Source: Deroplatys truncata
Taxonomy: Eukaryota > Arthropoda > Insecta > Mantodea > Mantidae
Length of the DNA: 64,000 nt
Reading direction: 5' to 3'
NCBI GenBank assembly: GCA_030765065.1
Contig: CM060989.1
Location: 55,504,001 to 55,568,000, forward strand
Shown: piece by piece, positions 941-60,305 of the stretch
How positions within the stretch are numbered: the first letter of the stretch is position 1
How the letters are laid out: each line of letters starts with the position of its first letter
Made by a program: the position numbers and the translations under genes
Notes under the pieces: generated by a model
What the model was told of the DNA's origin: nothing
Seen by the model: the letters and a program-made list of their open reading frames with translations, nothing else
Databases searched by the model: none

Positions 941-1298
941 TCTGATGTGTTGTACTCGCATGACCTTCTCTACTCTTGTACAAACGCTTATTTTCCATCT
1001 GCTAAACATTTGCAGAAACATCTTATTGCTAATTTTCTTGTAGATGCAAGGGGAATATGGTAGGCTTTAAGCGATAGTCAAATCTTTTAAGAGCTGGTTG
1101 CTATGTGGAGCATTCCATTCTCTTTGCATTACCAGGACATAAAAAACGAATAACGAATTCTCATTTGAGAAAAAGTATAAGTATTGGTAAATTCAAACAA
1201 ATAACAAGGAGTATCTCTGAAATGGCCCACTCGACCAAAAGAGGTGACAATTTGTGTATTTTAACGAGATCTACATTTTTTGTGTAGTAAAATTGTAC

Positions 1299-1335
<37 letters not shown>

Positions 1336-1772
1336 CAGTTATGCAAAAGTCATTCAGAATGAAGAGGATTGCTGGGAACATCCCCAGAAAATTCAAGATA
1401 TACATTTCATTTGTCATGAAAATATCTTAAACGTATGATATTTTAATCAAAATCGTTAACCATTTTTGAAAAAATTAAAATTTTCGAAAAATGTTCCATG
1501 TAGTAAAGGGTAATGTGGGGTGGGGGGATTTTCTTGAAAACCTTCGTGTCGCATCTCTGGAAGATCCTGAACGTAAGTACCAAGTTTGGTATGTATCCAA
1601 CTGTTCGTTTCTGAGTTATGCTGTTCGCACACACACGGACATGTTTCCAAAAATGCTTTTTTTTGGATTCAGGGGGTCTCAAAACATGTATTTCCGGTGA
1701 AATCTCTGTATCGAATTTTTGGGTGGAATGCAATGCTTCCCCTACTTACCTACTATACGTAGTAGAGAAAGT
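941..1772 (+). mobile_element. HLE repeat, full-length copy
   Basis: Complete copy running from TCTGATGTG to AGTAGAGAAAGT. It holds the family's internal landmarks in order: GACCTTCTCTACTCTTGTAC near the start, the 'element of A/T-rich stem' around 1140-1330, the GGGGATTTTCTTGAAAACCT segment near 1525, the CACACACGGACATG site near 1630, and the 3' hairpin TACTATACGTAGTA at 1751-1764, eight bases before the end. The TCTATCTCTTATGG spot of other copies is replaced by a (TC)n array at 1302-1333. It is followed directly by a second, 5'-truncated copy. Confidence 0.85.
1302..1333. repeat. (TC)n microsatellite inside an HLE copy
   Basis: About 16 TC units occupy the place where other copies read GTCTATCTCTTATGG, so the array appears to have grown from that short pyrimidine seed. 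Confidence 0.9.
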
Positions 1773-2327
1773 AAAAAAAAGAAGAAAAAGGAATAACGAA
1801 TTCCCAATTTGAGAAAAAGTATAAGCATTGGAAAATTCAAACAAATAACAAGGAGTATCTCTGAAATGGCCCACTCGACAAAAAGAGGTGACAAATTGTG
1901 TATTTTAACGAGATCTACATTTTTTGTGTAGTAAAATTTTATTCTCTCTCTTACGGTTTACCAGTTATGCAAAAGTCATTCAGAATGATGAGGATTGCTG
2001 GGAACATCCCCAGAAAATTCAAGAGATACATTTCATTTGCTATGAGAAAATCTTAAACATATATTTTAATCAACATTGTGTTTTTTTTAAAAAATAAACA
2101 TTTTCGAAAAATGTTCCAGGTAAAGGGTAATCTGGGGTAGGGAAATTTTCTTGAAAATCTTCATACCGCATATTTTGGAAGGTATTACACCTAAATACCA
2201 AGTTTGGTACACACACCTTTTTCTAAAAAAGCTTTATTTTTATTTAGGGGGTCTCAAAACATGCGTTTCCTGTGAAACCTCGGTATTGAATTTTTGGGTG
2301 GAATGCATACTACGTAGTAGAGAAAGT
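1773..2327 (+). mobile_element. HLE repeat, 5'-truncated tandem copy
   Basis: Starts in the A-rich junction right after the preceding copy and joins the family internally at AATAACGAATTCCCA. It continues to a normal 3' terminus (TAGTAGAGAAAGT). The head-to-tail arrangement without spacer resembles the tandem copies at 43508-46049. Several internal deletions shorten it relative to the full copy. Confidence 0.8.
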
Positions 2328-2585
2328 AGGAAGTGATTCTTTTTGATTCAGAATATATGGTTTCGTGGTCATTTTAAACTTTGTACTTCTAAACATTTTT
2401 AGTAAAACTCAAGTATCTCAAAGCGTGTTATCTGCTGATCCCAGGTCAGAAGGCAACAGAGGGTGGAGGTAATGCCTACTTCAGCGAATGCACTTTTAGT
2501 GATACCTTAGAACTTAAATTTCAAATGCCAGTATCTCAAAACGTTTTTCCAAGCAATAATACTTCTTTTTCCCTAAACCTTAAAA

Positions 2586-4706: not shown

Positions 4707-5956
4707 TTTATATTTTGAGCCTAATAATTAAAACAAAGTAATTTCTGATTGAAAACTGCTTTATTGCTTTTCAAAATATTCTCCTTTATGATCAATACAC
4801 TTTTGCTCCGTTTGAACCATTTGTCAAAGCATTTATTCCAGTCTTCTTGAGACACCTCCAAAACATAGTTTTTGAAAGCATAAACGGCTTCTGCCAACGA
4901 AAATCGTTGTCCACGCAATTTATTCTTTATGTTCGGGAACAAAAAGAAGTCAGTGGGTGCCAAATCACGACTGTATGGCGGATGACCCATCAATTCGATT
5001 TTTTGAGCCTTCAAATACTGTTAGACGAGATGTGTGTGCGCTCGCATTGTCTTGATGAAAACGATCCTACGGTTCTTGTTGGTTTTCCTTACTTCACCGA
5101 AGACTTCCAGCAAACAAATGTTTGTGTACCATTCAGCATTTTCCGTTTTACGTTCCTCTAAAGGCACTGTTGCCACATGGCCAGTTTTGCTGAAAAAGCA
5201 GGCGACACCATTTGCTTCGAAGTGCTTCGAGTGCGAACTACTTTTGTTGGATTTGCTTCATCTTGAAACACCCATACAGTCGACTACTGTTTACGTTCCG
5301 GCTCATACGCATAGATCCATCATTCGTCACCTATTACAATCTTATATACCTATTTTGAGGCACCGCCATTGTATTTCTTGAGCATTTTTGTACACCAATC
5401 GACACGAGCATCTTTTTGAGATTGCGTCAAATTATGTGGGATCCAACGAGAGCAAACCTTTTTCACGGCTAAATAATCATGTAATATTTTATATATGCTG
5501 GTGGAACTAATGCCTAGAGTTGCCTCAATCTCACAATATGTCGCATGACGATCTTTCATTATTAGTTTTTGCACAGCATCAATGTTTTCTGGCACAACAA
5601 CTGATTTTGGACGACCTTCACGAACTTCATCATTGAGCGAACGGCGGCCACGATTAAATTCGTTATACCAGCGTTTCACAGTGGCAAAGGATGGAGCTTC
5701 GTCGTCAAATGTAGTTGTTGATCGATGCACTCGTCTTGATAATCCACGTGAAAGTCTTAATAAATCATTGCACGAACACTTTCACGAGTTAATTCCATGT
5801 TTTTGTTGACACACAATTTTCAAGTTAGTGTAAACAAAAAAATGACGCTCTATTGACAATGTTTTAAGTAGATTATGGTCAAAAACGTCAAACTTTTCCT
5901 TGGAAACGTCAGATGGCACCTACAATATTCAGGGTTGCCAAGGCTCAAAATACCAA
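4707..5956 (-). mobile_element. mariner-family DNA transposon 1, broken
   Basis: The element is bounded by 15-bp inverted repeats, TTTATATTTTGAGCC at the low end and the complement of TTGGTATTTTGAGCC at the high end, each next to TA, the usual mariner target duplication. The minus strand encodes a mariner transposase over most of the interior. At about 1250 bp the size matches intact mariners. The reading frame is broken in several places, so it is not expected to make transposase. Confidence 0.88.
4721..5798 (-). pseudogene. mariner transposase pseudogene (DD34D)
   Basis: Starts with ATG at 5798 (MELTRESVRAMIY), which matches the family start. The frame shifts in the next 20 codons, then a good mariner helix-turn-helix region follows at 5730-5350 (SFATVKRWYNEFNRGRRS, GRPKSVVVPENIDAVQKLI, TYCEIEATLGISSTSIYKIL, CSRWIPHNLTQSQKDARVDW). 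The catalytic part is split among frames: GDEWWIYAYEPERKQ carries the first Asp, QDNAS the second, and HPPYSRDLAPTDFFLFP the third. All three catalytic aspartates are therefore still visible. The C-terminus ends near 4721. At least three frameshifts or stops separate the pieces. Confidence 0.88.
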
Positions 5957-7742: not shown

Positions 7743-8698
7743 TACAGAGTGGACCATTTAAGTTGAGATTGTACAATATCTCAAAAACTAAGCGTTGTAG
7801 AAAGAAATGTCTTTAATAAAAGCTGCTTGATATTCTTCTTCTTCATCTGTTTAACCTCCTCTTATGTAGGACTTGCACCCCCTAGGACTTACAGGCGGGT
7901 GCCTGGGGTCAGAGGCCCGTCGAGGAGCAGACACTCATGGATCAGATAGAATATCCAGTATGGGTGATCAGCCCGATGACTGGTATGGGATGAAGGAAGT
8001 AGATGAAACGAAATGGTGAAATGGATGAAAGGAAAGGTGATGGAGCAGTTGGTGGAATGAATAGCGGGGGGAAACCGGAGAACCCGGAGAAAACCCGCCC
8101 AGACGCCGCTTTGTCCACCACAAATCCCACCGCTTCGGTGAGAGGCGAGCGGTCTAACCACTCGACCACGGCGCCGCCTCCTGCTTGATATTATGGGGGA
8201 AATGTCATTAGTCGTGCTTTGTTTGGAGGACCTTGATAGTCATTTTAGGACCAATTTAATTTTTTTTATATGGGAACCAACATTTTGTATGTTTTCTCAT
8301 TAGAAAATTGTTTATGAAAAGCTGTTTTCTGTGATGAATAAGGGAGCAATAACAAAAAACAAATTGTTGGTTCCCAACTATGAAACTTAACTTGACCCTC
8401 AAATGACCACTCATTGAGTTCTTCGTACACAGCCATTCAAGATTTTCGTTATTTACGTTGGTGTAAGAACTGCAAAGTGCTTTATAGTCGTTTTTTTTAG
8501 TGAGAAAACAAAAAGGGTAGGTTCCCATTTAATAAAAACTAAATTGACCCTAAATGACCAACATACTCCAAATAAAACACGTTTAATGGCATTTACTTGC
8601 CCCCATAATATCAAGCTACTTTCATTAAAGACATTTTTTTCCTACAACGCTAAGTTTTGGAGATATTGCATAGTCAACTTTAAATGGTCCACCCTGTA
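7743..8698. mobile_element. TIR MITE with ~110-bp ends, hosting a SINE
   Basis: The ends are long inverted repeats: ACAGAGTGGACCATTTAAGT at the left and the complement of ACAGGGTGGACCATTTAAAG at the right, with matching inner segments (AGCGTTGTAG, ATGTCTTTAAT, GCTTGATATTATGGGGG). TA flanks both ends, as for Tc1/mariner/IS630 elements. The centre (8256-8530) is itself partly palindromic and recurs at 55640-55955. A SINE at 7835-8180 interrupts the left arm. No transposase is encoded, so it is non-autonomous. Confidence 0.78.
7835..8180 (-). mobile_element. tRNA-derived SINE with 12-bp target duplication
   Basis: On the minus strand it begins with a tRNA-like head (box A-like GCCGTGGTCGAGTGGTTAGA) at about 8178. 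It ends at 7835 in a purine-rich GATGAAGAAGAAG tail. The flanks CTGCTTGATATT at 7823-7834 and 8181-8192 are perfect 12-bp direct repeats, as left by LINE-driven insertion. The shared 3' part (complement of TGTAGGACTTGCACC) recurs at 42600, 62578, 63728 and 40800, defining SINE family S2. Transcription would be by RNA polymerase III if active. Confidence 0.88.
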
Positions 8699-8700
8699 TA

Positions 8701-9186
8701 GCAAAAAGGACTGTTTGCACAATTTCTCCATGAAAAAGTTTTAATGGCAACATAATGTAAAACTGAAATACATACTTTTACTCTCAAATAGGACACATTC
8801 ACTAAACATTATTTTAATAAACCGTCCAATATCTGATTTAGCTGCCTATGCACTGAATCACTTGTCGCCCTCTGGGAATACTAACATGAAATGTGGGAAC
8901 ATACCTGTGCGTTTAGAATCAGAATTCTTCCAGCATCTAAGCGATTAGGTAACTAGGCGGCTAAATCAAATATTGGACAGATTAAAATAATGTCTAGTAA
9001 ATGTGTCCTCTTTGAAAGTGAAAATTATAATTTATTTCAGTTTTAGATTATACTATCATTAAAAATACTTTTTCATGGAGATAGTGAGCAGAACAATGTT
9101 CTATTTAGATTGGACAGATTCCAATAATGTCTAGTAAATGTGTTCTTTGAGAGTAAAAAGTGTAATATATTTCAGTTTTACATTGT
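8701..9186. repeat. Fold-back element with a partial extra arm
   Basis: Arms of about 140 bp at 8711-8850 and 8950-9093 are inverted copies of each other (for example CCATGAAAAAGT against ACTTTTTCATGG, and CAGTTTTA/TAAAACTG). The roughly 100-bp loop is unrelated. A third piece at 9100-9186 repeats the right arm in direct orientation (GGACAGATT, AATGTCTAGTAAATGTGT). No coding sequence is seen. It looks like a hairpin-type MITE with a later partial duplication. Confidence 0.7.
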
Positions 9187-9201: not shown

Positions 9202-9891
9202 TCTGATGTGTTACACTCACATGACTTTCTCTACTCTTGTACAAACTATTTTTACAAACGCTTATTCTCCATATGCTTCATGTTAATCGAAATATCGAGA
9301 TGTCAATCTTATTGCTTATTTTCTTGTAGATGCAAGGGGAATATGGTAGGTTTTAAGCGATAGTCAAATTTTAAGCGCTGGTTGCTATGCGGTGCATTCC
9401 AATCTCTTTGCATGTACAGGACATAAAAAAAATGAATAACGAATTTGAGAAAAAGTATAAGTATTAGAAAATTTAAGGGAATAAAAAGCAATATCTCGAA
9501 AACGGTTCACTCAACAAAAAAAATGTATATGGCATAAATTGTGTATTTTAACGCGATCTACATTTTCTGTGCAGTAAAATTTTGTCTATCTCTTATGGTT
9601 TACCAGTTATGCAAAAGTCGTTCACAATGCAGAATACTTTTGGAGACATTCCCAGAAAATTGGAGATATACATTTAATTTCTCATGAGAATATCTTGAAC
9701 ATATGATATTTTAATCAAAATGGTTAGAGCCATTTTTGAGAAAATTAAAATTTTCGAAAAATGTTCCATGTAAAGGGTAGTATAGGATGGGGGGATTTTC
9801 TTGAAAACCTTCGTGTCGCATCTCTGAAAGATACTGAACCTAAATAGCAAGTTTGGTGTTTATCCGACTGTTCCGTTTCTGACTTATGCTG

Positions 9892-9935
<44 letters not shown>

Positions 9936-10059
9936 TTTCCAAAAATGCTTTTTTTGGATTCAGGGGGTCTCAAAACATGTATTTCCGGTGAAATCCCGGA
10001 ATCGAATTTTTGGGTGGAATACAATACTTCCCCTACTTCCTATACGTAGTAGAGAAAGT
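9202..10059 (+). mobile_element. HLE repeat, full-length copy
   Basis: Runs from TCTGATGTGTTACACTCACA to AGTAGAGAAAGT with all internal landmarks. It abuts an A-run at both ends (ATTAAAAAAA before, AAAAA after), consistent with insertion in an A/T run. The CA site has expanded to a (CA)n array at 9894-9933. Confidence 0.88.
9894..9933. repeat. (CA)n microsatellite at the HLE CA site
   Basis: About 18 CA units between GCTGTT and CGTTTCCAAAAATGC, the same position as the arrays near 15353, 17641 and 44236. Confidence 0.92.
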
Positions 10060-10728
10060 AAAAACTCGGAGATATTGTGCAAAACATGGCTTAATTTAGT
10101 TATATATTATTTTAATATGGTTATAAGTGATGAATAATGCTATTGCTCAAAGTTATACATTCATATGTGAATAATCTAGAACTGTGCACGTAAAACAGGA
10201 CCTCCTGCTTGTTATACATATTCACCTGTGAAGGCCAGTAAAATATCTCCCAAAGCTGCGAGGACGGTATAAATGTAAGCTACTGTACCTAAACGAATGA
10301 AGTGAATTTACCTTTCTCTTCCTAAAAATCCTTGCCAAATAAAATCTCTCACTCTTTCAATATTCTAATGCGCTAGTAACTGTCCGTGCAGTGTATATAT
10401 AATGCCTTCATTTACTTTCACCTAAAACTTCAAAACTAGTTTCTTAACCCCTAAAAGTGACATTTTTATCCGAAATTTTGGTTATCTGAAACAACTTTCC
10501 CCCTCTCCTTTATTCCAGTTAGCAGAAGTACTACTGTATTTGTGCTATATCGACTGTACTTGCTATTAGTATATTCTCTAATCTACATTAAGGTCAAACG
10601 CATTAGACTATGAAGTAAGCTATTCAAGAAAAACCACGTTTGACAATGTACGCCATGCATGTGTTGAAAAGTGGGTGTCATATTTTCAAATTGTTTTAAG
10701 TGGTGGGATTTTGGCGAGTTACTTCAAA
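10060..10728. other. Unassigned region
   Basis: No recognisable motif. AT-rich with no sustained open frame. Confidence 0.4.
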
Positions 10729-10800
10729 ACATTGCAAAGTTTGGAAAGGTAGAATCAGACGATTAAAAATTCCCCAGCTGATTCGCATTTTTCCCGGTAA
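10729..10800 (-). mobile_element. SINE S1 body fragment, inverted
   Basis: GGAAAGGTAGAATCAGACGA is the complement of the S1 body seen at 11010. It is a short piece without a tRNA head. It lies head-to-head with the next S1 copy about 125 bp away. Confidence 0.55.
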
Positions 10801-10924
10801 ACCACAAGGCGATGTCAAATTGTAATGAGATGATATACCCCAATGTCGACTTACATTGCTGCAAGTCCCGGGTTTCATAGTTCCAATCACTATTAGGTCA
10901 CTTAATGCACACTTAAGGTACCGG

Positions 10925-11072
10925 CATGTCGCCATGGTAGCCAGTGGTCAGAGCAAGAGGACGGAAACCGGGAGATCCGTGGTTTAAATCCCGGCAATGG
11001 CATTGAAATTTTCAGTCTGATTCTACCTTTCCAACCTTGTCCAACACACGGCTTGTGTGAAAGAACAATTAA
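10925..11072 (+). mobile_element. tRNA-derived SINE (family S1)
   Basis: Box A-like GTAGCCAGTGGTCAGAGC near 10937 and box B-like GTGGTTTAAATCCCGGC near 10980 are spaced as in tRNA-derived SINEs. The body (CAGTCTGATTCTACCTTTCC) and tail (GAAAGAACAATTAATTCC) match 7125-7260. At about 150 bp it is close to a full short SINE. Confidence 0.7.
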
Positions 11073-12327
11073 TTCCAATGTAAAGTTTTGGATTTATTTG
11101 TAATTTGGGACATTAGATTAAAGCTTGAGACAGCTGCAGGCGTAGATGGGGAGAGAGAGATTTCAAAATAAGCATACTGAGACTAGTGGGTATGGTTTTT
11201 TCAACCATGCAAATCCTCTAGCATTTTCAGAGCTACTGAAAGTAGTGGAGTCCCTAGCCACAATGCTTAAGTTGAGAGGATATTTGAACACTAATGAACA
11301 TTGTATCATAAAACAATTTTGTTATTACAGTATAAATGAAAAACGTTTATTTTCTGTCAATGTTATGGCCAAATAGGAAATCCTTATGCAGTTGGTTTCA
11401 AGGTATCTGCACTCAAATCATTACAACAAAGAATGCAAACAGCAGCCAAGGGCCACTGACAGGCAAGTAAAACCGGCCTGAGTGCTGCCTGCAAATGCCG
11501 AAAGATTGTACGAGAGATGCGGGGTTTACCTGCAACGTTCCTGTCTTTAGATCAGTTCAACCATATTTCCTTCCGCCCTGCTTTAACGCTTGGAAATCCC
11601 TAAGACTCGGAACTTGGGGCCTTGTGTGCCTGAGTAAGCGTATTCAATGTCAACAAACACCTCGTACTCTTCGACCACGGCGTGTGCTTTCTTTGGGAGG
11701 AGGAGTCAGGTATTCACAGTTTCGAGTTGCACTTACTAGTGAGGCTAAGGCGTGTAATTTTAGTACTGTTTTCATTATGCAACTGTACATTCACACGAAC
11801 ACCTTGATCCTCACTTCTCTCGGATCGCAAGCCTTGAAGTTGCGCATTGTCAACAAAACAATGGCACTCTCCGCCAAACGCATTCATATCGTGGCCGACT
11901 AGTACTACTCGGGACATTTAGGAATATCGTTGGTTTGGGGGCGCTATTAACGTGTTTACATCCAAGTAGCCTGTACTCGTTAGTTGCCGAGTTGGCTCTG
12001 CTTACATTACATCTTAACTCCACTTGACCGCAAGGCATACCGGGTCCTAAGTTCCCAACCTTTCAGAGAGAGGGGAATGAAGCGAGTTTCCCTTTCCATT
12101 CGTTCTACCAAGGACTGAAACTTAATTGGTTTAGTTTTATCAGTCTCTTCAAATATAGTAAGTGGGGTAACTATGGACTTTGGACCTTAGCTCTTAAGAG
12201 AAGTCAGGCTTCACTGGTTACCATTTTGAAAAACTAAGAGCCTCCTAGGAGCCAAGAAAGTCTCCGGGGGGGGGGGGGGTTTACAGGTAATTACCGGAAC
12301 TCCTGCTTCAAATCTAAAAGGGTAAAC
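11073..12327. other. Unassigned, relatively GC-rich region with a poly-G tract
   Basis: The stretch at 11470-12060 is GC-richer than its surroundings, but no domain or known repeat is recognisable. The 135-residue frame at 11495-11902 lacks recognisable motifs. A run of about a dozen G lies near 12267-12279. A promoter or CpG-rich remnant is possible but not shown. Confidence 0.4.
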
Positions 12328-12519
12328 TATGAGGGCTGATCAATAAAGACAGACTGATGTTCTCCTGTAGCTTCCTTGTTAGTTTCCTGTCTCTACCATG
12401 ACTATTTGAAAAGAGCAGGGTTTCATGGATAATGTCCATAGGCGGCAGCACTCTCGTATCGGTAGGTTGGTAGTAATGCTGTATATTGTTGACCCTATTT
12501 GAATTTGGCATACCACAAA

Positions 12520-13708
12520 ATGGAGGTGACACGAGAGGAGCAATACAGCGCAATAAAATTTTGTTTTCATTTAAATCATACAGCCTCTGAAACTTTCGAA
12601 AAGCTGAAGCAAGCATACGGTGAAGATGCACTACCTCGTGCAACAGTATTTAGGTGGTTCAACGTGAGCCTGGTGTTTCGGAATGGAATGGTGTACAAGC
12701 ATGCAGTTCCCCCTTACACTACTGTTACAGCAGCATACTACAAGTCAGTATTGGCTACACTGAGGAAGCACATTGCAAAGAAACGTCCAGAACTACATCG
12801 GAATGGGTGGCGACTTCATCGCGACAACGCGAGGCCTCATGTCGCAAATCAAGTCCAGGAATCTTTTCTTCTACTTCACGGTTTTAGGCCGTCCTGGGTT
12901 TCTGTATCCTTGGGGTCCATAGTTATATGTTGCTCGGGGTATTCTATTTAATGGCATTCTTTCTAAATGTTTTCCAGTTCTATATTCTATTATTACTTTA
13001 TTTAATTCTTCTATTTTTAACTTTTACCTTATTTGGTTTTTTTTTTTTGTTTTTATCCAGTCTTGTGTATCCTGCTTAGGTCTGAGAAATTTCATTTCAG
13101 CTGTCTGTATTCTTTTATTTTCTGCTGTCACTGTCCATGTTTCAGATCCATAAGTTACTGTGGGGATGGCCATTGCTTTATACAGTTTTATTATTGAGTC
13201 TTTTTTAATATTATTATAGTTCCCGTTATGCAATTAAATTTAACTTCTTATTAATGTCTATTTCAGACCCATATGTTATTTCACATCCTAGAAAATTAAA
13301 TATTGACACTTGTTCTATGCTTTTATTTTCTATAATTATTTTAGACCGGACCGAGTGAGTACCTTTAAATGCCATAACTTTAGTTTTTTCAGTTGAAATT
13401 TCCATGCTGTATGTTTTTTTATATTAGAATTTAGTAACTCCAGGAATTTTCGGCTAAATTCAACATTACCTGTGTGCCGCATCCCCGCTATAGCCCCGAT
13501 CTTGCCCCCTGTGATTTATTTTTATTCCCATTACTAAAGACAAAGCTCCGGAACATTAGATTTGAGAGCACTGAAGCAGTGCTGAAGAAAAGTGAGGCGA
13601 TTCTCAAAGACCTTGCAAAGAATGGCCTGGCAGAGACGTTATAAAAAGTGCATACAAGCAGGAGGGGACTACTTTGAAAAAGATCATGTCAACAATGAAA
13701 TGGAGTAA
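12520..13708 (+). pseudogene. mariner transposase pseudogene, internally deleted
   Basis: The start ATG at 12520 gives MEVTREEQYSAIKFCFHLN, then ETFEKLKQAYGEDALPRATV and FRWFN, the mariner helix-turn-helix. The frame then jumps to PPYTTVTAAYYKSVLATLRK and WRLHRDNARPHVANQVQE, which contains the second catalytic Asp. After the LINE insertion the protein resumes at about 13469 with PHPRYSPDLAPCDLFLFP (third Asp in PCDLF), then KTKLRNIRFESTEAVLKKS, ending at 13708. The segment holding the first Asp (usual VDETW) is absent. Confidence 0.87.
12885..13468 (-). mobile_element. Non-LTR retrotransposon (LINE) fragment inside mariner 2
   Basis: On the minus strand, 13233-13024 reads KLYKAMAIPTVTYGSETWTV and then RIQTAEMKFLR, the hallmark C-terminal segment of insect LINE reverse-transcriptase proteins. 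Further on (about 12960-12890) RMPLNRIPRATYNYGPQGYR is the matching downstream part. The fragment is 5'- and 3'-truncated with several stops. The clade cannot be set from this short piece. Its junctions coincide with the break in the mariner reading frame. Confidence 0.75.
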
Positions 13709-13761
13709 TAAATATCTGTGGAAAAAAAATCATTCTTAGTCTTTATTGATCAGTCCCCGTA

Positions 13762-14496
13762 TTTGAGAACAAATTCGTAACGTGCACGATTGTAGTGTGG
13801 ATTGTGGATTTACTACAACTAGAATGTGGAGATGAACTCGCTGTCGCTTGTCTGGTTAAACGCAAATGCAACTGGATGTCATTCGAAACGATAGGTATTG
13901 TGGTCGAACAGGAAACACGATGAGTAAAAATAATAATGCCCTCTCAATGTCATTTCTTTGATTCAGCATAATCTAGTTGAATCAGTATTTCCAACAGCGT
14001 AACGAGAATGGCTACGTTAATTCTAATGTACTTGTTTGCTGCTAACGGCTGCTTAGCAAGTGGTTTACCAGGTCACTAGGGTCAAGATTTTAATGCAAAT
14101 GCACATTTCTTCTGTTGTCAGTATGCTCACTTACTGGTCGTAGCCGTTCCCTCACGGTGACTTGTCAAGAGTTCTCGGAAATGAGTTCCAGTTGGTGGTT
14201 ATACTTACAGGTAAATATCCAACCATTAATAGTTCTAGAAATTCAATTCCTGTATTCCTGTACATCCTGTCATCCAATTCAATGATAAGGAGTTGAAGGT
14301 CGTGTTTTTGCATAATCATGCCAAAAATAAAAGTGAGACAAAATTACAGGAGTATATTGTATCTTTAATATTAAAGATACATTTTGACGAGTTAAATAAC
14401 TCAATATTACTTCCACAATAATTTTGATCACGGAAAGGTTACATAAAATTGCCTTAAATTTTTATTTTGTGTCACTATCATAACAGTTATAAAAAA
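13762..14496. other. Unassigned region
   Basis: No feature recognised between mariner 2 and the first HLE composite. Confidence 0.4.
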
Positions 14497-15222
14497 TCTG
14501 ATGTGTTACACTCACATGACTTTCTCTACTCTTGTACAATCTAATTTTACAAACGCCTATTCTCCATATGCTTCATGTTAATCGAGATATCGAGATGTCA
14601 ATCTTATTGGTAATTTTCCTGTAGATGCAAGGGGAATATGGTAGCTTTTAAGCGAGTCAAATATTTTAACGCTGGTTGCTATGCGGCGCATTCCATTCTC
14701 TTTGCAAGTCAGGACATAAAAAAATGAATAACGTATTTGAGAAAAAGTATAAGTATTGGAAACTTTAAGGGAATAACAAGCAATATCTCGAAAACGGTTC
14801 ACTCAACAAAAGAAATGTGTATGACATAAATTGTGTATTTTAACGCGATCTACATTTTTGTGCAGTAAAATTTTGTCTATCTCTTATGGTTTACCAGTTA
14901 TGCAAAAGTCGTTCACAATGAATACTTTTGGAGACATTCCCAGAAAATTCGAGATATACATTTCATTTCTCATGACAATATCTTAAACATATGATATTTT
15001 AATCAAAATCGTTAGCCATTTTTGAGAAAATTAAATTTTCGAAAAATGTTCCATGTAAAGGGTAGTCTGGGGTGGGGGGATTTTCTTGAAAACCTTCGTG
15101 TCGCATCTCTGGAAGATACTGAACCTTAATACCAAGTTTGGTTGTTTATACGACGGTTCGTTTCTGAGTTATGCTGTTCACAGACACACAGACACACGGA
15201 CATGTTTCCAAAAATGCTTTTT

Positions 15223-15364
15223 ACTTTCTCTACTACGTATAGTAAGTAGGGGAAGTATTGCATTCCACCCAAAAATTCGATACCGAGATTTCACCGGAAA
15301 TACATGTTTTGAGACCTCCTGAATCCAAAAAAAGCATTTTTGGAAACATGTCCGTGTGTGTGTC

Positions 15365-15412
<48 letters not shown>

Positions 15413-16117
15413 TGTGTGTGTGTCTGTGAACAGCATAACTCAAAAACTAACAGTCGGATAAACACCAAACTTGGTATTTACGTACAGTATCTTCCAGAGA
15501 TGCGACACGAAGATTTTCAAGAAAATCCCCCCACCCCAGACTACCCTTTACATGGAACATTTTTCGAAAATTTTAATTTTCTCACAAATGGCTAACGATT
15601 TTGATGAAAATATCATATGTTTAAGATAATGTCATGAGAAATGAAATGTATATCTCGACATTTCTGGGAATGTCTCCAAAAGTATTCTTCATTATGAACG
15701 ACTTTTGCATAACTGGTAAACCATAAGAGATAGACAAAATTTTACTGCACAAAAAATGTAGATCGCGTTAAAATACACCACTTATATCATATACATTTTT
15801 TTTGTTGAGTGAACCGTTTTCGAGATATTGCTTGTTATTTCCTTAAATTTTCCAATACTTATACTTCTTCTCAAATTCGTTATTCATTTTTTTATGTCCT
15901 GGACATGCAAAGAGAATGGAATGCGCCACATAGCAACCAGCGATAAAATATTTGACTATCGCTTAAAACCTACCATATTCCCCTTGCATCTACAAGAAAA
16001 TTACCAATAAGATTGAGATCTCGATATCTCGATTAATATGAAGCATATGGAGAATAGGCGTTTGTAAAAATAGATTGTACAAGAGTAGAGAAAGTCATGT
16101 GAGTGTAACACATCAGA
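15223..16117 (-). mobile_element. HLE repeat, complete inverted copy nested in an HLE
   Basis: Begins with ACTTTCTCTACTACGTATAG (complement of the 3' end) and finishes with ACACATCAGA (complement of the 5' end). It lies inside the T-run of the outer copy. The CA site is expanded into a GT array on this strand (15353-15428). Confidence 0.88.
15353..15428. repeat. (GT)n-rich compound microsatellite at the HLE CA site
   Basis: GT units broken by a few TCTG interruptions, located at the family's CA site on the minus-strand copy. Confidence 0.9.
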
Positions 16118-16304
16118 TTTTTTTGGATTCAGTGAGTCTCAAAACATGTATTTCCGGTGAAATCTCGGTATCGAATTTTTGGGTGGAATACAATACTTCC
16201 CCTACTTACTATACGTAGTAGAGAAAGTAAAAAGGGAATCGAGCATCAATTTGGTGATTAACTTATTTTATTAATGTTTGTTATACAAATATGTACAGAT
16301 TTTT

Positions 16305-44236: not shown

Positions 44237-44324
<88 letters not shown>

Positions 44325-44469
44325 TCACACACACGGACATGTTTCCAAAAATGCTTTTTTTTTTTGGATTAAGGGGATCTCAAAACATGTATTTCCGGTG
44401 AAATCTCGGTATCGAATTTTTGGGTGGAATGCAATACCTCCCCTACTTACTATACGTAGTAGAGAAAGT
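43508..44469 (+). mobile_element. HLE repeat, full-length copy (long-middle subfamily)
   Basis: TCTGATGTGTTACACTCACA to AGTAGAGAAAGT, with the long middle (AAGGGCAATATAGAAATACA) shared with composite 2. The CA site has grown to a compound CA/GA array. It is followed head-to-tail by a truncated copy. Confidence 0.87.
44236..44336. repeat. Compound (CA)n(GA)n microsatellite at the HLE CA site
   Basis: About 17 CA units followed by about 24 GA units and a short CA stretch, bounded by GTTCACAGG and CGGACATGTTTCC. Confidence 0.92.
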
Positions 44470-46049
44470 AAAAATGTATGACAAATTGTGTATTTTAACG
44501 CGATCTACATTTCTTGTGTAATAAAATTGTGTCTATCTCTTATGGTTTACCAGTTATGCAAAAGTCGTTCACAATTGATGCAGTAATTTGTATCATAAAT
44601 TACTTAAATGTAAAGAGTGATTATAGTATGAATATGCATTTTTGTGTGACATTAATTTCAGATATTTGTTTATTGTAATTATTGTTGAGAAGTAAGTTTT
44701 TAATGCCTTACTGAAACTGACAATAATAGCGTGCAATAATGCAGCGAGGGGGTGAGCTGTTTATCATTATTGGAAACGAGGAAGTTACGTAATGTTGGCG
44801 CGTTTTTCTTTTAGAATCTTCTGGAACATTTCCCTAGAGCATATGTATTCATAATTTTCATTGGATATAAAAATAGACGCTAATGTTGGCGCGTTTTATT
44901 AGCCAATTGCAGCTCAGTTATAATCTTTAGGCATATCTGGGTGAAGGAGTATAAAAGGTAGGTTAGAGGTAAAGACCCCGTCATTTCGTCGAAAATATTT
45001 GTAAGATACACGTAGCCTTCAGTCCAGCAGAAATATTTCACGTCGGCTATCGATTCGCAAGTTACGCGTATCAGAGTTATGAAAAATCTCAAGTATTGTA
45101 AAGTTAATGATACAAAAAGTTGAAGTACGTGAATTAAGAATGATCAGTAAATAAGTTATTATAACAGTTTCAGTTTGGCGAGTGTCAAGATCAATGTGTA
45201 AATTGTGATAGTGAATGTGTTCGACAATAAAAAGTGTAAAACAAATTCTTTCATCAGTGTTATCTTTGGATAAGAGACTCCCTTCCGTTTACACAACCTG
45301 TATAAAGAGAAGTGCTTGACCAAAAGATCATAGCTAGCCGGAGGACAGTGAACAAAAAAATTAAATAAAATAACAGTAGCATTCTTTCAAACGAACACTA
45401 ATACTACCGCAAATTGCTAACACCAGATGGAGCTACAAACCTAACAAAGAATCACGTCACAAAATGGCTTCACCATGTTGAGTAAACACATACACAAATA
45501 ACATTATAAATAATACTACTTCAAATTGGCTTCCCAAACGTGGGGCTCAATAAATAAATATAACAAATAAAACTACTTCAAATTGGCACCACAACGTGGG
45601 GCTACACAAAAATGTTAAATATAAATAACAAATACCGCCGAACAATGAAGAATACTTTTGGAGACATTCCCAGAAAATTCGAGATATACATTTCATTTGT
45701 CATGAAAATATCTTAAAACATGTGATATTTTAATCAAAATCGTTAGCCAGTTTTGAGAAAATTAAAATTTTCAAAAAATGTGCTATGTAAAGGGTAATCT
45801 GGGGTAGGGGAATTTTCTTGAAAACCTTCGTGTCTCATATCTGGAAGATACTGAACCTAAATACCAAGTTTGGTGTTTATCCGACTGTGCGTTTCCGAGT
45901 TATGCTGCCCCCCCACACACGTACGTTTACAAAAATCCTTTTTTTTATTCAGGGGGTCTCAAAACATATATTTTCGGTGAAATCTCGGTATCGAATTTTT
46001 GGGTGGAATACAATACTTCCCCCTACTTACTATACGTAGTAGAGAACGT
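44470..46049 (+). mobile_element. HLE repeat, 5'-truncated tandem copy, split by an LTR
   Basis: Joins the preceding copy at its terminal A-run and starts internally at TGTATGACAAATTGTG. At GTCGTTCACAAT it is interrupted by the LTR (44576-45642), then continues with CAATGAAGAATACTTTTGG to AGTAGAGAACGT. This is the second head-to-tail tandem in the window. Confidence 0.85.
44576..45642 (+). mobile_element. Solo-type LTR, copy 4, inside an HLE copy (fossil)
   Basis: Starts TGATGCAGTAATTTG and is flanked by CAAT duplications (44572-44575 and 45643-45646). It has the paired TTGGCGCG motifs near 44796 and 44886, a TATA box near 44950 and a GACAATAAAAAG signal near 45224. The 3' part repeats the ATTGGC..CC..AACGTGGGGC primer-binding-like word twice about 65 bp apart. 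No coding region is attached. Confidence 0.88.
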
Positions 46050-46989: not shown

Positions 46990-47572
46990 ATTTTAATTCA
47001 ACACTATAATTACAATGAGAATGAATCTCATTCAAATAGTTGAACTAAGAATGGCAGTACTTTTCTGGAAAAGAATCACAAAACTTTCTAGCATATCTGG
47101 ATGGCGTACTCGAAAAGTGTAAACAAGAAACATCGAATATTTCGGAAACTCTAATATATGAGTAGTTGGGTATTTTGACGAGCTATAACGTCTTTTCTAT
47201 TGGGCATTTGTGTATTTCTTACGATTTCCCAGTTGTACAACATTAAATTCTATCAGTACGAAGAGTGTTTCACTATCAATTCAGAAATCAATTTATCACG
47301 CCTGTAACTCAAACATTATAAATGTAATCAAACTGTTAGCTATTTTTTGATGCTACTTTGGAGGCAATTTTCTTGAAAATCTTCGCGCACAATACGAATA
47401 ATGCACCTCAAGTAAAAACTCAATCTTTCATTTGAGTTATGCCTTCTCTCACAGGCAAGTTTTTGGGTTCGGGATCTTAAAACGTGCATTTCTAGTAAAC
47501 TCTCTATAGTGAATTTTTGGGCGGAATAAGATATCCCTGCCTACCATTGATAAGCGGTATAATAAAAATAGA
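46990..47572 (+). mobile_element. HLE-related copy, strongly diverged
   Basis: Recognisable mainly in its 3' half: CAATTTTCTTGAAAATCTTC, AGTTATGCCTTCTC, GTGAATTTTTGGGCGGAATA and a degenerate end GCGGTATAATAAAAATAG. The left boundary is uncertain. Confidence 0.5.
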
Positions 47573-47717: not shown

Positions 47718-48520
47718 TACTTTCTGTACCACGTGCATAGTAGGCATTCCAAGAAACAATTCGAGATTTCACCGGAAAGACATGTTTTGGTGCCCCTGAA
47801 TAAAAAAGAAATCAAGAATTTTTTTTTAGTGTGAACAGGGTAATTAAACGAAACGTCGACTAAACACCAAACTTTGTATTTAAGTTCAGTATCTTCCACT
47901 GACACCAAGGCTTTCAAGAATATTCACCCCATACCCTACTACCCTTTACATGGAAGATTTCGAAATTTTATTTAGAAAAAATGTGTAAACGATTTTGATT
48001 AAAATAACATTACAGATATTTACATGACAAAACTTATATCTTGAATTTTCTGGAATAGCCTGTGAAGTCCTCTTCATCCGAATGGAATTTTGTATAATAC
48101 AATATTGTATAAGTGCTATACAGACAATACTACAGCAAAAATGTAGATCTCTTTAATACACACAAATTATTTCAAATAACTTTTTCGTGACATAAGTAAT
48201 TTCCGAGATATTCGTTATTAATGCTAAGAATTGTTCAATACTTCGTAATTCTTTTGAAGCCCAGTCAATATTCAGTTGTTTTTCTGGCGATTGCATGGAA
48301 ACGGTATGGAATTTTGGGCCAGCATATAGAATCCAGTTTACACATTCGACTATCGCTGTTTCCTTTGCATCTATAACGAAATGTGTAATTGCACTATTTC
48401 TGCAAAGGCATGTCTTATTAAAATGAAGCAGATAAAAAAATAAGCTTTCTAAGAATAGTTTATATGTCCATTTATAAAAGATAGCTAGTAGAGAAAGTCG
48501 TGTGAAAGTAATATTTTTAT
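47718..48520 (-). mobile_element. HLE subfamily 2 copy
   Basis: From ACTTTCTGTACCACGTGCAT to GTAGAGAAAGTCGTGTGAAA. Internal subfamily-2 markers (AGATCTCTTTAATACACACA, GCATTTATAACGAAATGTG-like) are readable in reverse. Confidence 0.7.
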
Positions 48521-50111: not shown

Positions 50112-50765
50112 CTTTGTGATTAGGTAGAGGAAGTTAATGTATTGCACCAAAAAATCCTATATCGAGATTTCACCGGAAATGTCCGTTTTCAGGCTCCTTG
50201 AATAAAAAATAATTGAAAAAGGTTCCGGTGTGTGAACAGCATAACTCAAAAATCAAAAGTGGCATAAATACCAAACTTGGTATATTAGTTTAGCATATTC
50301 TAAGGGTGCGACACAAACATTTTCAAGCAAATCACCTCAACATAAGCTACCCTTTTCATAGAACATTTTTCGGTATTTATTTTCACAAAAATTGCTCTCA
50401 AAGATTTTTTTTATTAAAATGCCACGCATTACAAGTAAAATAAAATGTTTATCTTTAAGTTTTTGGGAAAAGCCTGTGAAGTCCTCTTCTTTCGGAATGA
50501 CTTTTGTATGTCTTGTAAACTCACAATTAATTTCAAATAATTCTTGTGGCATCAATCACTTCCAAAATATTCATTACTATTTGTTTGAATTTGTCAATGC
50601 TTTATTAATTTCTTTTAAAGTGCTGACGTTATTCATTTTTTTCTCGCTATGGAAAGAGCAATTTCAAGGCCCGCTTTTAAATATCCAACTATCGATTCCA
50701 TTTTCTCTATCTGCTTCAAAAAACGTGTAATGAAATTATTTCTGCAAATGTTTATCTCGATTAAC
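50112..50765 (-). mobile_element. HLE subfamily 2, diverged copy
   Basis: Complement of a 3' end (GTGATTAGGTAGAGGAAGTT, ATCGAGATTTCACCGGAAAT) through CATAACTCAAAAATC and on to TGCAAATGTTTATCTCGATT. It is followed immediately by a plus-strand copy, giving a back-to-back pair. Confidence 0.6.
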
Positions 50766-51197
50766 GAATCGGATAAGTTACATTCACATACGACTTTCTC
50801 TAGGTTTATTAGTGGATACACAAATTATTCTTACGAAAGTTTATTTCTCTACTTCATTTTAATCCAGATAAAGCTTTGCAGAAATAACTATATTCCACAT
50901 TTCGTTGGGCTAAAAAAATAATAAATAAATAAAAAAAACCGGCGATAGTCAAATGTTTTGGAACTGGACGCTATATACTAGCCTTAAGGTTCCTTACTCC
51001 TCCCATGGCATCGCGAGTAACAACTGAAAATTTACAAAACTTTAAAAGAATGAAAGCAGTGAACAAATGGACCATTAATAAAGGATATCTCGGAAATAGC
51101 TTGTGCCACATATAAAATTCCTTCCGGTGAAGAGGACTTCACAGGCTATTCCCAAAACATTAAGCTATAACATTTTATCTGTCATGTAAATATAATT

Positions 51198-52759: not shown

Positions 52760-52895
52760 AGCGTTCATAAATAAAACTCAACTTCGATTAAAATGAAGTA
52801 GACACAAATAAGCTTTCGTTAAGAGTAATTTGTATACCAATTAAGAAACGATAGAGGTTAGAGAAAGTCAGCGAATGTAACAAGATTTTTTTGGG
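52760..52895 (-). mobile_element. HLE subfamily 2, 5'-end fragment
   Basis: Complement of the subfamily start: GATTAAAATGAAGTAGACAC, ACGATAGAGGTTAGAGAAAG and GTAACAAGA. It lies tail to tail with the next fragment. Confidence 0.6.
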
Positions 52896-52899
52896 GGGT

Positions 52900-53302
52900 A
52901 TATTACGTTTTTGTTTATCTCTTATGGTTTACCAGTTATAAAAATTGCTTTTGGGGACTTCACAGGATATTCCCAGAAAATCCGAGCTATACATTTTATA
53001 TCTTAGGTATTTTCATAAAAATCATTAGCACCATTTTTGAGAAAATCTAATATTTCGAAAAATGTTCCATGTAAAGGGTAGTTTTGGGTGGGGGATTTTT
53101 CTTGAAAAGCTGCGTGTCGCATCTTTGAAAGTTGCTAAATCTAAATACTACGTTTTGTATTTATTCGATATTCTCTCTCACGGGCCTACCCCCTCCTAAA
53201 GGGGCCTCAAAACATGTAATTCCTGTGAAGTCTCGACATCGAATTTTTTGTGGAATATTCTTCCTCTTACCTTCTATAGGTAGGTGGTAGAGAAAGTAAA
53301 AA
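52900..53302 (+). mobile_element. HLE-related 3' half
   Basis: Starts internally at GTTTATCTCTTATGGTTTAC and runs to GTGGTAGAGAAAGT. The CA site is replaced by CTCTCTCACGGGCC. Confidence 0.72.
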
Positions 53303-55959: not shown

Positions 55960-56661
55960 TCTGATGTGTTAAACTCACATGACTTTCTCTACTCTTGTAC
56001 AAACTAGTGTTACAAACGCTTATTCTCCATCTACTTCATGTTAATCGAAATGTTAATCTTATTGCTAATTTTCTAGTAGGTGCAAGGGGAATATGGTAGG
56101 CTTGAAGCGATAGTCAAATATTTTAAGCGCTGGTTGCTATGTGGAGCATTCCATTCTCTTTGTAAGTCCAGGACATAACAAAATGAATAACGAATTCCCA
56201 TTTGAGAAAAAGTATTGGAAAATTTAAGGAAATAACAAGCAATATCTCGAAAATGGTTCACAAAAAAAAATGTATATAAATTGTGTATTTTAACGCGATC
56301 TACATTTTTTGTGCAGTAACATTTTGTCTATCTCTTATGGTTTACCAGTTATGCAAAAGTCGTTCACAATGAATACTTTTGGAGACATTCCCAGAAAATT
56401 CGAGATAGGTGGGAGGGATTTTCTTGAAACCTTCGTCTCGCATCTCTGGAAGATACTGAACCTAAATACCAAGTTTGGTGTTTATCCGAATGTTCGTTTC
56501 TGAGTTATGCTGTTCACAGACACACATACACGGACATGTTTCCAAAAATGCATTTTTTGGATTCAGGGGGTCTCAAAACATATATTTCCGGTGTAATCCC
56601 CGTATCGAATTTTTGGGTAGAATACAAACTTCCCCTACTTACTATACGTAGTAGAGAAAGT
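55960..56661 (+). mobile_element. HLE repeat copy with internal deletion
   Basis: TCTGATGTGTTAAACTCACA to AGTAGAGAAAGT, but about 110 bp is missing after CCCAGAAAATTCGAGATA (56408), where it jumps to GGTGGGAGGGATTTTC. It lies in an A-run at the edge of the MITE fragment. Confidence 0.86.
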
Positions 56662-57335: not shown

Positions 57336-58625
57336 TACGAGGACAGTCCCAGAAGTACCCGACCGGACGTATATACAGCAGTTGTTTCAAACAAATGACT
57401 ATAGTAGAAAATACCACCCTTATAAAGCTTAAGTTTGAAGTTTGATGATGCTACGTTGCTTAGTAATTGTTTGGCAGCCATTAATAGTGAACTCTCTCAG
57501 CGAATTTGTACACATGGATAAAACTGGCCATCGTTATGTGATACAATACTTTCATTTGAAAGGTCTTAGTCCAACTAATATTAAACCTGAGCTAGATTCT
57601 ACTCTGGGGAAGTCTGCTCCTTCGTTTACAACAGTAAAATATTGAGTGACAGAGTTTAAGCGAGGCCGTACGAGCTGCCAGGACGAACATCGCAGTGGTC
57701 GACCAAATGAGGTGACCATGCCAGAAACTGTGAAGAAAATTCACAAAATAGTATTGGATGACCGTCGACTGAAAGTGCACGAGCTAGCAGACATCGTAGG
57801 CACTTCAAAACGTACTGTACATCGCATAGTAACTGAAAAAGTAGACATGAGAAAGCTATACGCAAGGTGGAACCGCGTTTACTCACAATGGAACAAAAAC
57901 AGCGTCGTGAGGAAAATTCAGTCGAGTTTTTGGCGATGTTTCGCTGCAATTAAGCTCAGTTTTTGCGTCGTTTCATAACTATGTATGAAACATGGGTCCA
58001 TCACTTCACACCTGAGACGAAGGAACAGTCAAAACAGTGGATTGAAAGGGGAGAATCGGCTCCGAAGAAGGCGAAGACAGTTCCATCTGCGGGCAAGGTC
58101 ACGGCGTCAGTTTTTTGGGATGCACGTGGGATAACTTACATTGATTATCTTCGAAAAGGAAAAGCAATCAATGGCGAGTATTATGCAAACTTATTGCAAC
58201 GTTTGAATGATGAAATCAAGCAAAAGGCCGCATTTAGCGAAAAGAAAGTTCTGTTTCATCAAGACAATACACCAGTTCACACATCCATTATCGCCATGGC
58301 CAAAATCAATGAGTTAAAGTTCAAATTGCTTCCGCATGCACCCTATTCGTCAGACTTAGCCCCCTCTAATTATTTTATGTTGAAGGTTGAAGAAATGACT
58401 TGGTGGTAAAAGATTTGCCAACAATGAAGAGGTGGAGTCTGCAGTTGATGGCTATTTTGCAGAACTCGGCGGATCTCACTATAAACAGGGTATGGAAGCT
58501 ATTGAACATCGCTGGGAAAAGTGTATCGAGCTGAAAGGAGATTATGTAGAGAAATAAAGATGTTTTTCCCCAAAATTTTTGTTTTTTCTTTGTTAGGTCA
58601 GGACTTCTGGTACAGCTCTCGCAAG
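57336..58625 (+). mobile_element. mariner-family DNA transposon 3, nearly full length
   Basis: The ends share an inverted repeat: ACAGTCCCAGAAGTACCCGA at the left and the complement of GCTGTACCAGAAGTCCTGAC at the right, with TA next to each. The interior encodes an almost complete mariner transposase on the plus strand. At 1.29 kb it has standard mariner length. It is inactivated by stops, frameshifts and catalytic changes. Confidence 0.9.
57514..58557 (+). pseudogene. mariner transposase pseudogene lacking two catalytic Asp
   Basis: Opens MDKTGHRYVIQYFHLKGLSP, then APSFTTVKY followed by a stop (TGA at 57643, where the family has Trp). VTEFKRGRTSCQDEHRSGRP, EVTMPETVKKIHKIVLDDRR and LADIVGTSKRTVHRIV form the DNA-binding half. 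A frameshift near 57870 leads to PRLLTMEQKQRREE, and a second stop lies near 57951. The catalytic half reads MYETWVHHFTPETKEQSKQW (first Asp, usual VDETW, is Tyr), FHQDNTPVHTS (second Asp kept) and PYSSDLAPSNYFM (third Asp, usual PSDYF, is Asn). After another frameshift the C-terminus ends CIELKGDYVEK. Confidence 0.9.
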
Positions 58626-58815
58626 TAACTTCTAAAACGATGTCAACCTAGCATGATGGCCAAGTTCCACCAGCACATGGTTACAACCTTAAGATAAGAA
58701 AGTATCGTACCATCACCCCATTACCGTATATTTTGAACAAATATGTTTATTCTAAACAGCTTAAACCCTGAAAATACAGGTGAAAATACCGAGGAAATTT
58801 CAATCCCATATATAT

Positions 58816-59250
58816 AATAGGGAGTGCCAAAAGACTTCAAACCGGCTGCGCGGTGTTTTTCATGTCCGCGTCCTCGGCGCTCGTTGCCGTCTGCCGCTAT
58901 CAAAGAAAGGCGCAAATGAAACCATACAACATTTTTAAAACTATTTTTAAATGCTTTATTTAACAACTTAATGAAAATGTGTTTGAGGGCAAACTTATTA
59001 GTACAGATTTGTGGCACCCTCGGTCTCCCGACCTAACCACCTGCGATTTCTATTTCTGGGGTAACTTAAAACAAAGTGTACAAGACAAATCCACACACCG
59101 TGAAAGAATTAAAACAAAATATCCGCCAGGAAACTGCCAGCATTTCTCAAAGTGATCTATGGCGAGTGATGGATAGTTTCCTAAAGAGGTGCCAAAAATG
59201 TATGGACAATAACGGTGGCCAGTTTCAGCATCTCCTTTCATATGTATAAA
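58816..59250 (+). mobile_element. IS630-like (DUF4817 family) 3' fragment
   Basis: The left part (58816-58978) is the terminal repeat arm also seen at 22742 (GGCTGCGCGGTGTTTTTC, TGCCGCTATCAAAGAAAGG). It is joined to the transposase C-terminus, which reads DLWHPRSPDLTTCDFYFWG-like sequence, NPHTVKELKQNIRQE, ISQSDLWRVMDSFLKRCQKC and MDNNGGQFQHLLSY. The N-terminal two-thirds and the right arm are missing. It supplies the coding context for the inverted 3' piece at 22742-23085. Confidence 0.75.
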
Positions 59251-59424
59251 CGTCGAAAAAGTATTTTCACGTTCAAATGGGGGTGCGGAAAGTACTCTTT
59301 CTTTCGTGAATTTTTAATCTTCTAAAACTTGCAACATGTTACACACTTGGCAAAACAAAACACAAACAGAATTTTGGAATAATACATGAATTATATATAT
59401 ATATAATTCAAAAAGTTACTTTTT

Positions 59425-60305
59425 ACTTTCTCTACTATGTAAAGTAGGGGAAGTATTGTATTCCACCCAAAAATTCGATACCGAGATTTCTCCGGAAATC
59501 TATGTTTTGAGACCCCCTGAATAAAAAAAAACATTTTTGGAAACAGCATAACAGAAACGAACAGTCGGATAAACACCAAATTTGGTATTTAGGTGCAGTA
59601 TCTTCCAGAGATGCGACACAAAAGGTTTTCAAGAAAATCCCCCCGCCCCAGATTACCCTTTACATGGAACATTTTTTGAAAATTTTAATTTTCTCGAAAA
59701 TGGCTATAACGATTTTGATTAAAATATCATATGTTTAAGATATTTTCATGACAAATAAAATGTATATCTTCAATTTTCTGGGAATGTCTCCAAAAGTATT
59801 CTTCATTGTGAACGACTTTTGCATAATTGGTAAACCATAAGAGATAGACAAAAGTTTACTACACAAAAAATGTAGACCGCGTTAAAATACACAATTTATG
59901 TCTTATACATTTTTTTGTTGAGTGAACCATTTTCGAGATATTGCTTGTTATTCCCTTAAATTTTCCAATACTTTTTCTCAAATGGGAATTCGTTATTCAT
60001 TTTTTTGTGTTGGATATGCAAAGAGTATTAATCTGTGGCAAAGAGAATGGTGCTGCACCTAGCAACCAGCTATTAAGAGATATGTTTATGCTTAAAGGCT
60101 ACTGTATTTCTATATTGCCCTTGCAAATACAAAACAAGGGGAACATAGTACGCCTTAAGCGATAGTCAAATATTTTTAGAACTGGTCGCTATGTGTAAAA
60201 TGTAATTCTCTTTGCATGTCAAAAGATCGTTTCTGCAAATGTTTATCTCGATTAATATGAAATAGATGGAGAATTAGAGAAAGTCATGTGAGTGTAACAC
60301 ATCAG
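59425..60305 (-). mobile_element. HLE repeat, full-length copy (long-middle subfamily)
   Basis: From ACTTTCTCTACTATGTAAAG to ACACATCAGG on the plus strand, lying next to T/A runs. Its middle (TATTAATCTGTGGCAAAGAG, AAGGCTACTGTATTTCTATA) is the long form shared with 17541-18465. No CA array is present; the CA site is deleted. Confidence 0.85.

Follow-up and report, generated by a model that had tools for sequence, protein, structure and literature searches.

The window analysed here, a stretch of 64,000 nucleotides from Deroplatys truncata (contig CM060989.1, positions 55,504,001 to 55,568,000), harbors many copies of a short repeat family, here called HINE after the published non-autonomous Helentrons, which is DINE-1-like and without coding matches. 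By analogy with published elements, the family very probably represents a non-autonomous rolling-circle transposon of the Helitron2/Helentron kind. The copies share an asymmetric arrangement of inverted repeats and hairpins, are sited in T-runs and are nested in one another, and at three filled insertion sites nothing except T was duplicated. The class assignment is supported by testable structural features and by these three sites, for which unfilled relatives exist. The HINE family is new; the kind of element is already known and nothing calls for a new kind. The family accounts for over a quarter of the region, and its direction, which is corrected here, is needed for the search for an autonomous partner and for genome annotation. 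Furthermore, several copies are nested or in tandem and have unfilled relatives, which makes the window a useful test bed for the choice of T-runs and for the point at which Helentron-type copying stops.

Abundance and anatomy of the HINE family

The terminal motif ACTTTCTCTACTAC, the reverse complement of the terminus GTAGTAGAGAAAGT given by a first-pass annotation of this DNA, was found 27 times with up to two mismatches compared to 0.62 expected occurrences, a count reached by none of 100 dinucleotide shuffles. The second motif GAGTGTAACACATCAGA, the reverse complement of the annotated terminus TCTGATGTGTTACACTC, occurred 10 times compared to 0.02 expected, and again none of 100 shuffles reached this count. 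A profile built from 11 copies gave 44 matches covering 17,764 bases or 27.8% of the window, several of these matches being weak hits on the element's own inverted parts. No match was obtained in the reversed window or in one base-shuffled window. Merging by eye resulted in about 29 pieces on both strands. Thus, the shared termini and the estimate of about 25 pieces on roughly a quarter of the window, both taken from the first-pass annotation, were borne out. Element length is about 0.7-0.96 kb, and nine better copies display pairwise identities of 84-97%. At least two subfamilies are present and some members are mosaic. The window has a G+C content of 37% (33-42% across 2-kb steps); a tRNA search of it found none, and no Rfam family was matched at the gathering threshold.

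The complete minus-strand copy at 9202-10059, which is 858 bp long, runs from its 5' end at 10059 to its 3' end at 9202 and sits in a non-HINE repeat, served as reference. Its 12-bp 5' inverted repeat ACTTTCTCTACT (10048-10059) is flush with the 5' end and preceded by TTTTT, as in most copies. Just downstream lies its partner AGTAGGGGAAGT (10026-10037), which pairs with it to form a 5' hairpin, so that the element starts ACTTTCTCTACT-ACGTATAGTA-AGTAGGGGAAGT. A (CA/GT)n microsatellite, (GT)n in the corrected direction, is located in the first quarter of the element (9894-9934). The 3' inverted repeat AGTAGAGAAAGT (9224-9235) lies 22 nt inside the 3' end and upstream of a 3' hairpin, ATGTG-AGTGTAA-CACAT (9206-9222), which is followed by CAGA and a T-run. 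The element end therefore reads AGTAGAGAAAGT-C-ATGTG-AGTGTAA-CACAT-CAGA. Altogether, the layout consists of T5, the 5' inverted repeat and its partner forming the 5' hairpin, the microsatellite, the body, the 3' inverted repeat, the 3' hairpin, CAGA and T(n).

In Helitron2, the 5' repeat lies within 0-2 bp of the 5' end and forms a 5' hairpin with its downstream neighbour; the 3' repeat, directly upstream of a second hairpin, is separated from the 3' end by about 20-30 bp (PMC3627910). DINE-1 follows this plan with an additional microsatellite in its 5' part, block A (PMC2374699), and the plan is shared by HINEs of further species, a mite among them (PMC4067079). The present layout fits the published Helitron2/Helentron plan when it is read opposite to the direction of the first-pass annotation. 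The annotated "3'" end carries the flush repeat that pairs with its neighbour and corresponds to the 5' hairpin, and the annotated "5'" end TCTGATGTGTTACACTC holds the 3' hairpin, which separates the subterminal repeat from the terminus. The asymmetric 12-base inverted repeat had been recognized correctly, including its flush position at one end, and its inner offset is 22 rather than about 25 bases. Likewise, the hairpin TACTA-TACG-TAGTA, assigned to the vicinity of the 3' end, is present; it forms the core of a larger palindrome at the 5' end, whose arms measure 12 bases. Since the naming of 5' and 3' ends is arbitrary without a gene (PMC2374699), the corrected direction denotes the matched layout and not a measured direction of copying.

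Pairing of the 12-bp 5' stem was found in 88.9% of cells in an alignment of 14 of 17 5' ends (11 distinct rows), the structure being chosen from the same copies. The 12th stem pair is U-A in five rows and C-G in four. Three of 500 shuffles and none of six slid versions attained the covariation score of the stem; according to the warning of the tool, relatedness among copies can yield such values. The 3' hairpin is intact in 8 of 12 3' ends.

Insertion sites and class of the element

At least five T precede 14 of the 17 5' ends, exactly five being found at 10 of them, and at least four T follow 11 of the 12 3' ends. TTTTT begins at 0.65% of positions on both strands of the window. These counts were made after setting aside three of 20 5' ends (48498 and 32149, which are 3' repeats, and the doubtful 37207) and six degraded ends of 18 3' ends (404, 17048, 36898, 48511, 22395 and 32725). 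The element ends themselves read ACTT...CAGA.

Filled sites were compared with unfilled relatives from the same window in three cases, the first two of which are copies nested in other copies in the same T-run. Site 1 reads GC-T5-[copy]-T7-GGATTC when filled and GC-T7-GGATTC (9939; 15318 on the other strand), or the same with T8 (1647) or T11 (44345), when unfilled. Site 2 reads GC-T6-[copy]-T8-ATTC, and its unfilled relatives are CC-T8-ATTC (45929), G-T9-ATTC (59516) and GC-T17-ATTC (17597). At site 3, the reference copy is inserted into the non-HINE repeat as GAG-T5-[copy]-T8-AATATC; unfilled relatives read AAAAAG-T4-AATGGC (8714-8788) and AAAAAGTA-T5-AATGAT (9009-9108). In all three cases the bases beyond the T-run resume without duplication of anything except T. 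Compared to the closest relatives, the filled sites gained about 4-5, 5-6 and 8-9 T, respectively, which agrees with the variable T number described for Helentron insertions (PMC4067079). For the remaining complete copies, joining the flanks revealed no convincing unfilled relative; copy 55960-56661 gave a half site only. The earlier statements that insertions lie in A/T runs and lack a clear target duplication are consistent with the counts at both ends and with the three sites, where only T could have been duplicated.

The features used to recognize the Helitron2/Helentron kind are a 5' repeat within 0-2 bp (at most 4 bp) of the 5' end, a 5' hairpin, a 3' repeat upstream of a hairpin and T-rich insertion without target duplication. 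In HINE, the distance of the 5' repeat is 0 bp, the 5' stem comprises 12 bp, the 3' repeat lies 22 nt inside the end, and insertion is T-rich without target duplication at the three sites, a duplication of T alone aside. The assignment concerns the wider kind, a Helentron in the strict sense having an autonomous partner with the same ends and a Rep-helicase fused to an endonuclease. The class given by the first-pass annotation, a non-autonomous Helentron-type family, is retained on the basis of anatomy and filled sites, whereas the anatomy itself had been read backwards.

Several observations weigh against this assignment. Two of the five covariation measures were non-significant for the 5' stem: the count of pairs with two-sided changes was matched by 108 of 500 shuffles and the count of pair types by 97 of 500, and these ordinary values belong to the measures which the tool rates least prone to relatedness effects. 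Moreover, the tested structure had been selected from the tested copies themselves, and the three omitted 5' ends (2327, 18571 and 19894) have a deleted, rearranged or shortened stem. Folding energies were ordinary as well; in one copy, that of the 5' end was matched or beaten by 108 of 1000 base shuffles and that of the 3' end by 285 of 1000. The 3' stem has only 5 bp compared to 7-11 in DINE-1, and the hairpin is broken or lost at 941, 35199, 21902 and 18465. At three of 17 5' ends (2327, 35179 and 46049) T5 is absent. Relatives of the nested sites also carry 11 and 17 T, so that the T gain is rough. The relatives of site 3 are 72-74% identical and differ in several bases beside the run. A target duplication of T alone may be compatible with all three sites. 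Finally, the Pfam scans described below (34 of 36 segment-frames) detected no Rep-helicase or endonuclease.

The T-runs leave room for a cut-and-paste element resembling a miniature inverted-repeat transposable element (MITE), with subterminal inverted repeats and a T-run duplication, for example of five T, hidden in the run. Such an element would account for the T-runs on both sides, for exactly five T at 10 of 17 5' ends and for the approximately 4-6 additional T at the nested sites compared to their closest unfilled relatives; furthermore, DINE-1 was first read as a MITE (PMC2374699). Nevertheless, we regard it as very improbable. Inverted repeats at the very ends, as in MITEs, are lacking here, one repeat being located 22 bp inside, and the hairpins differ between the ends. 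At site 3, the gain was 8-9 T and not 5, although the relatives compared there are diverged. Even more remote is a poly(A)-associated retroposon similar to short interspersed nuclear elements, which would be suggested by the direction of the first-pass annotation, with A-runs in front of the copies and AAAAA after the annotated 3' end at 14 of 17 ends. It conflicts with the three sites devoid of duplication beyond the A/T run, with the constant inverted repeats of the two termini and with the lack of an Rfam match at the gathering threshold. Two further candidates were rejected. Canonical Helitrons (Helitron1) are defined by 5'-TC and CTRR-3' ends, insertion between A and T and the lack of a 5' hairpin, whereas the HINE copies end ACTT...CAGA, reside in T-runs and carry a 5' hairpin. 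DINE-1 itself has 13-bp repeats such as ATACCCGTTACTC, which differ from ACTTTCTCTACT in a by-eye comparison with the published table.

The Helitron2/Helentron assignment is further illustrated by comparison with known systems. DINE-1/INE-1 of Drosophila (PMC2374699, PMC4067079) resembles HINE in its short inverted repeats near the ends, the partner beside the 5' repeat, the 5' microsatellite, the hairpin after the 3' repeat, T-run sites without clear target duplication and the lack of coding sequence. Differences concern the repeat sequence (12 bp in HINE, 13 bp in DINE-1; by-eye table comparison of the repeats alone), the length of the 3' stem and a central tandem block, which was not seen here. 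Helitron2 of Chlamydomonas, Culex and others (PMC3627910) shares the two hairpins and the asymmetric placement of the inverted repeats, 0-2 bp inside one end and about 20-30 bp inside the other, and the Chlamydomonas element also inserts beside TTTT. Unlike Helitron2, no Rep-helicase copy was seen in the window, and exactly five T precede 10 of 17 5' ends. Cg_HINE of the Pacific oyster and HINE-Mo of a predatory mite (PMC7492417, PMC4067079) likewise have 11-15 bp repeats near the ends, hairpins, T-rich sites and microsatellites. Cg_HINE is also inserted in other repeats but contains satellite-like central repeats (PMC7492417), and the 3' repeat of HINE-Mo lies 38-60 bp from the end (PMC4067079) compared to 22 in the present family. 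Self-insertions have been studied in FoHeli of Fusarium oxysporum, and a figure legend proposes a Helitron inside an oppositely oriented Helitron; in contrast to the short copies without coding matches described here, FoHeli1 is autonomous and about 6-7 kb long (PMC5148889).

Pfam scans (E 0.001) of the sequence beyond the main copies covered 34 of 36 segment-frames, the other two being the plus frames from 10065 (10065-14486) and 36899 (36899-43491). They revealed no Helitron-like Rep, PIF1 helicase or endonuclease, and neither did a scan of copy 9202-10059 in six frames (E 0.1) reveal a Rep-helicase or endonuclease. Apart from that copy, the copy-dense parts were scanned in one plus frame up to 15000. 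Within this scope, the earlier statement that the window contains no Rep/helicase gene holds. The scans did detect pieces of mariner/Tc1-type transposases, besides weak matches to helix-turn-helix domains. A 24-base end pattern and a core pattern gave no match in genome contigs, nor did the core pattern in viral contigs. The exact 20-base 5'-end pattern hit three viral loci, all representing one phage-like gene stretch unlike the reference copy. A literature text search with terminal and core letters returned unrelated papers, and no paper naming the HINE family was found in searches of open papers, which do not include Repbase.

Nested and tandem copies

Tandem copies had been noted before; they were confirmed, and nested copies were found in addition. 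Four copies lie in internal T-runs of older copies, two in the same direction and two inverted. The complete copy 941-1772 (minus strand) directly follows the 3'-truncated copy 1773-2327 (minus), which stops in its own T-run where 941-1772 starts. Similarly, the complete copy 43508-44469 (minus) directly follows the 3'-truncated copy 44470-46049 (minus), whose parts 44470-44575 and 45642-46049 are split by another repeat (44576-45641). In the outer copy 14497-16228 (minus), the inverted complete copy 15223-16117 (plus) is located in a T-run between the arms 14497-15222 and 16118-16228. The same T-run is interrupted by the inverted complete copy 34220-35069 (plus) in the outer copy 33384-35179 (minus), which is without its own 5' T-run; the bases at 35180-35198, where T5 is usual, read ATTCATTTATG in the corrected direction. 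This outer copy also contains a run of 52 A (33746-33797), compared to eight in the reference copy. It is part of a head-to-tail array at 32718-35927, together with the older diverged copy 35199-35927 (minus), which has both ends, and the old copy 32718-33372 (minus). In both same-direction nests, the outer copy is devoid of everything 3' of the insertion, and in both inverted nests it keeps both ends, two and two cases being too few for significance.

Besides the T-run at its 5' edge, each copy has T-runs at three internal positions. HINE copies make up 27.3% of the window, yet they hold 71 of 133 A/T runs of at least six bases, 43 of 70 of at least seven and 26 of 37 of at least eight, runs at mapped insertion points having been left out. 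This T-run richness is a property of the copies' sequence and does not in itself demonstrate a landing preference over equal runs elsewhere. That the copies carry their own T-runs may explain the nesting.

With respect to the enzyme, the direction of copying and a single-stranded step, we infer the following course. A Rep-helicase provided by an autonomous relative would nick at the 5' end, and one strand would be peeled off and copied towards the 3' hairpin, where copying would stop. The copy would be inserted into a T-run, with additional T's as the sole change of the target. As each copy would bring further T-runs, new copies would often land in or beside old ones and generate both nested and head-to-tail arrangements. 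Carried further, the family might seed its own expansion, with its own T-runs as major landing sites and clusters growing by self-nesting; same-direction nests would lose the outer 3' end as copying stops at the inner 3' hairpin, and inverted nests would keep the outer copy intact. We put this forward as a speculative and rather doubtful proposal. If it were true, the direction-dependent outcome of self-nesting would preserve natural evidence that Helentron copying is one-way and terminator-dependent. One-way copying stopping at the first 3' hairpin would leave the pattern of the same-direction nests, but so would deletion or unequal exchange. For Helitron tandems, 3'-truncated inner copies are mentioned in PMC7492417, and the one-sided 3' loss of the HINE head-to-tail pairs resembles the pattern described there.

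Later recombination or deletion among copies, instead of polar rolling-circle copying, might as well have produced the nested and tandem arrangement. This explanation, which is compatible with the class assignment, has a reasonable chance without being the one we would expect. Unequal exchange could give the two one-sided pairs, and the outer copies 14497 and 33384 look mosaic: they are 89% alike, resemble each other in the 5' part and belong to different subfamilies in the last third. The four nested junctions argue in the opposite direction, since each has an element terminus on one side and the T-run of the older copy on the other. Trees of the full length and of the 5' part unite the inner copies 15223 and 34220 as sisters (bootstrap 92 and 98, respectively). 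The last-third tree separates them and joins one of them to the other locus's outer copy (84), and the host arm gave no resolution. The outer copies and their inverted inner copies may have transposed together as one unit or may reflect two separate events.

Remaining copies and other repeats

Further copies of the family include one with both ends and an internal deletion (55960-56661, minus), a near-complete member of the second subfamily (59425-60306, plus), a near-complete older copy (16306-17048, plus) and a copy without the 5' hairpin (17545-18465, plus). The remaining pieces were identified as profile matches. On the plus strand, these are a copy running across the window edge with its 3' half inside (1-400), two 3'-truncated copies (18571-19101 and 19894-20304), an internal fragment (20600-20755), a 3'-end fragment (21806-21902), a copy without both ends (36265-36898), a fragment (40656-40770) and two old copies (47719-48513 and 50120-50768). 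On the minus strand, fragments were found at 22395-22712 and 47112-47546, accompanied by a 5'-end fragment (41314-41539), one or more old fragments represented by two matches (50771-51193) and an old 3'-truncated copy (52879-53297).

Another repeat family, with members of about 1 kb, occurs at 20760-21775, 24555-25554, 39063-40050 (inverted) and 44576-45641. Its members start roughly with TGATGCAGTAATTTG and end with AATAAATA...ATACCGCCG; the last of them splits a HINE copy and has ACAAT on both sides. Broken mariner/Tc1-type transposase pieces, which point to a eukaryotic source of the DNA, are located at 5350-5781, 12493-12951, 26905-27638 and 57646-58409. Pfam matches to mariner/Tc1 lie at about 12553, 26905 and 58011, while the piece at 5350-5781 showed only a weak helix-turn-helix match and was called by eye. 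An inverted repeat at 61277-61981 with 216-nt arms that are 92% complementary, and outer ends like ACGAGGG...CCCTCGT, was judged by eye to be a mariner-type fold-back element. Within a repeat cluster around 7.1-11.1 kb, the segments 8183-8616 and 8703-9106 match their own reverse complement, and one self-complementary unit of this cluster is the target of the HINE copy 9202-10059.

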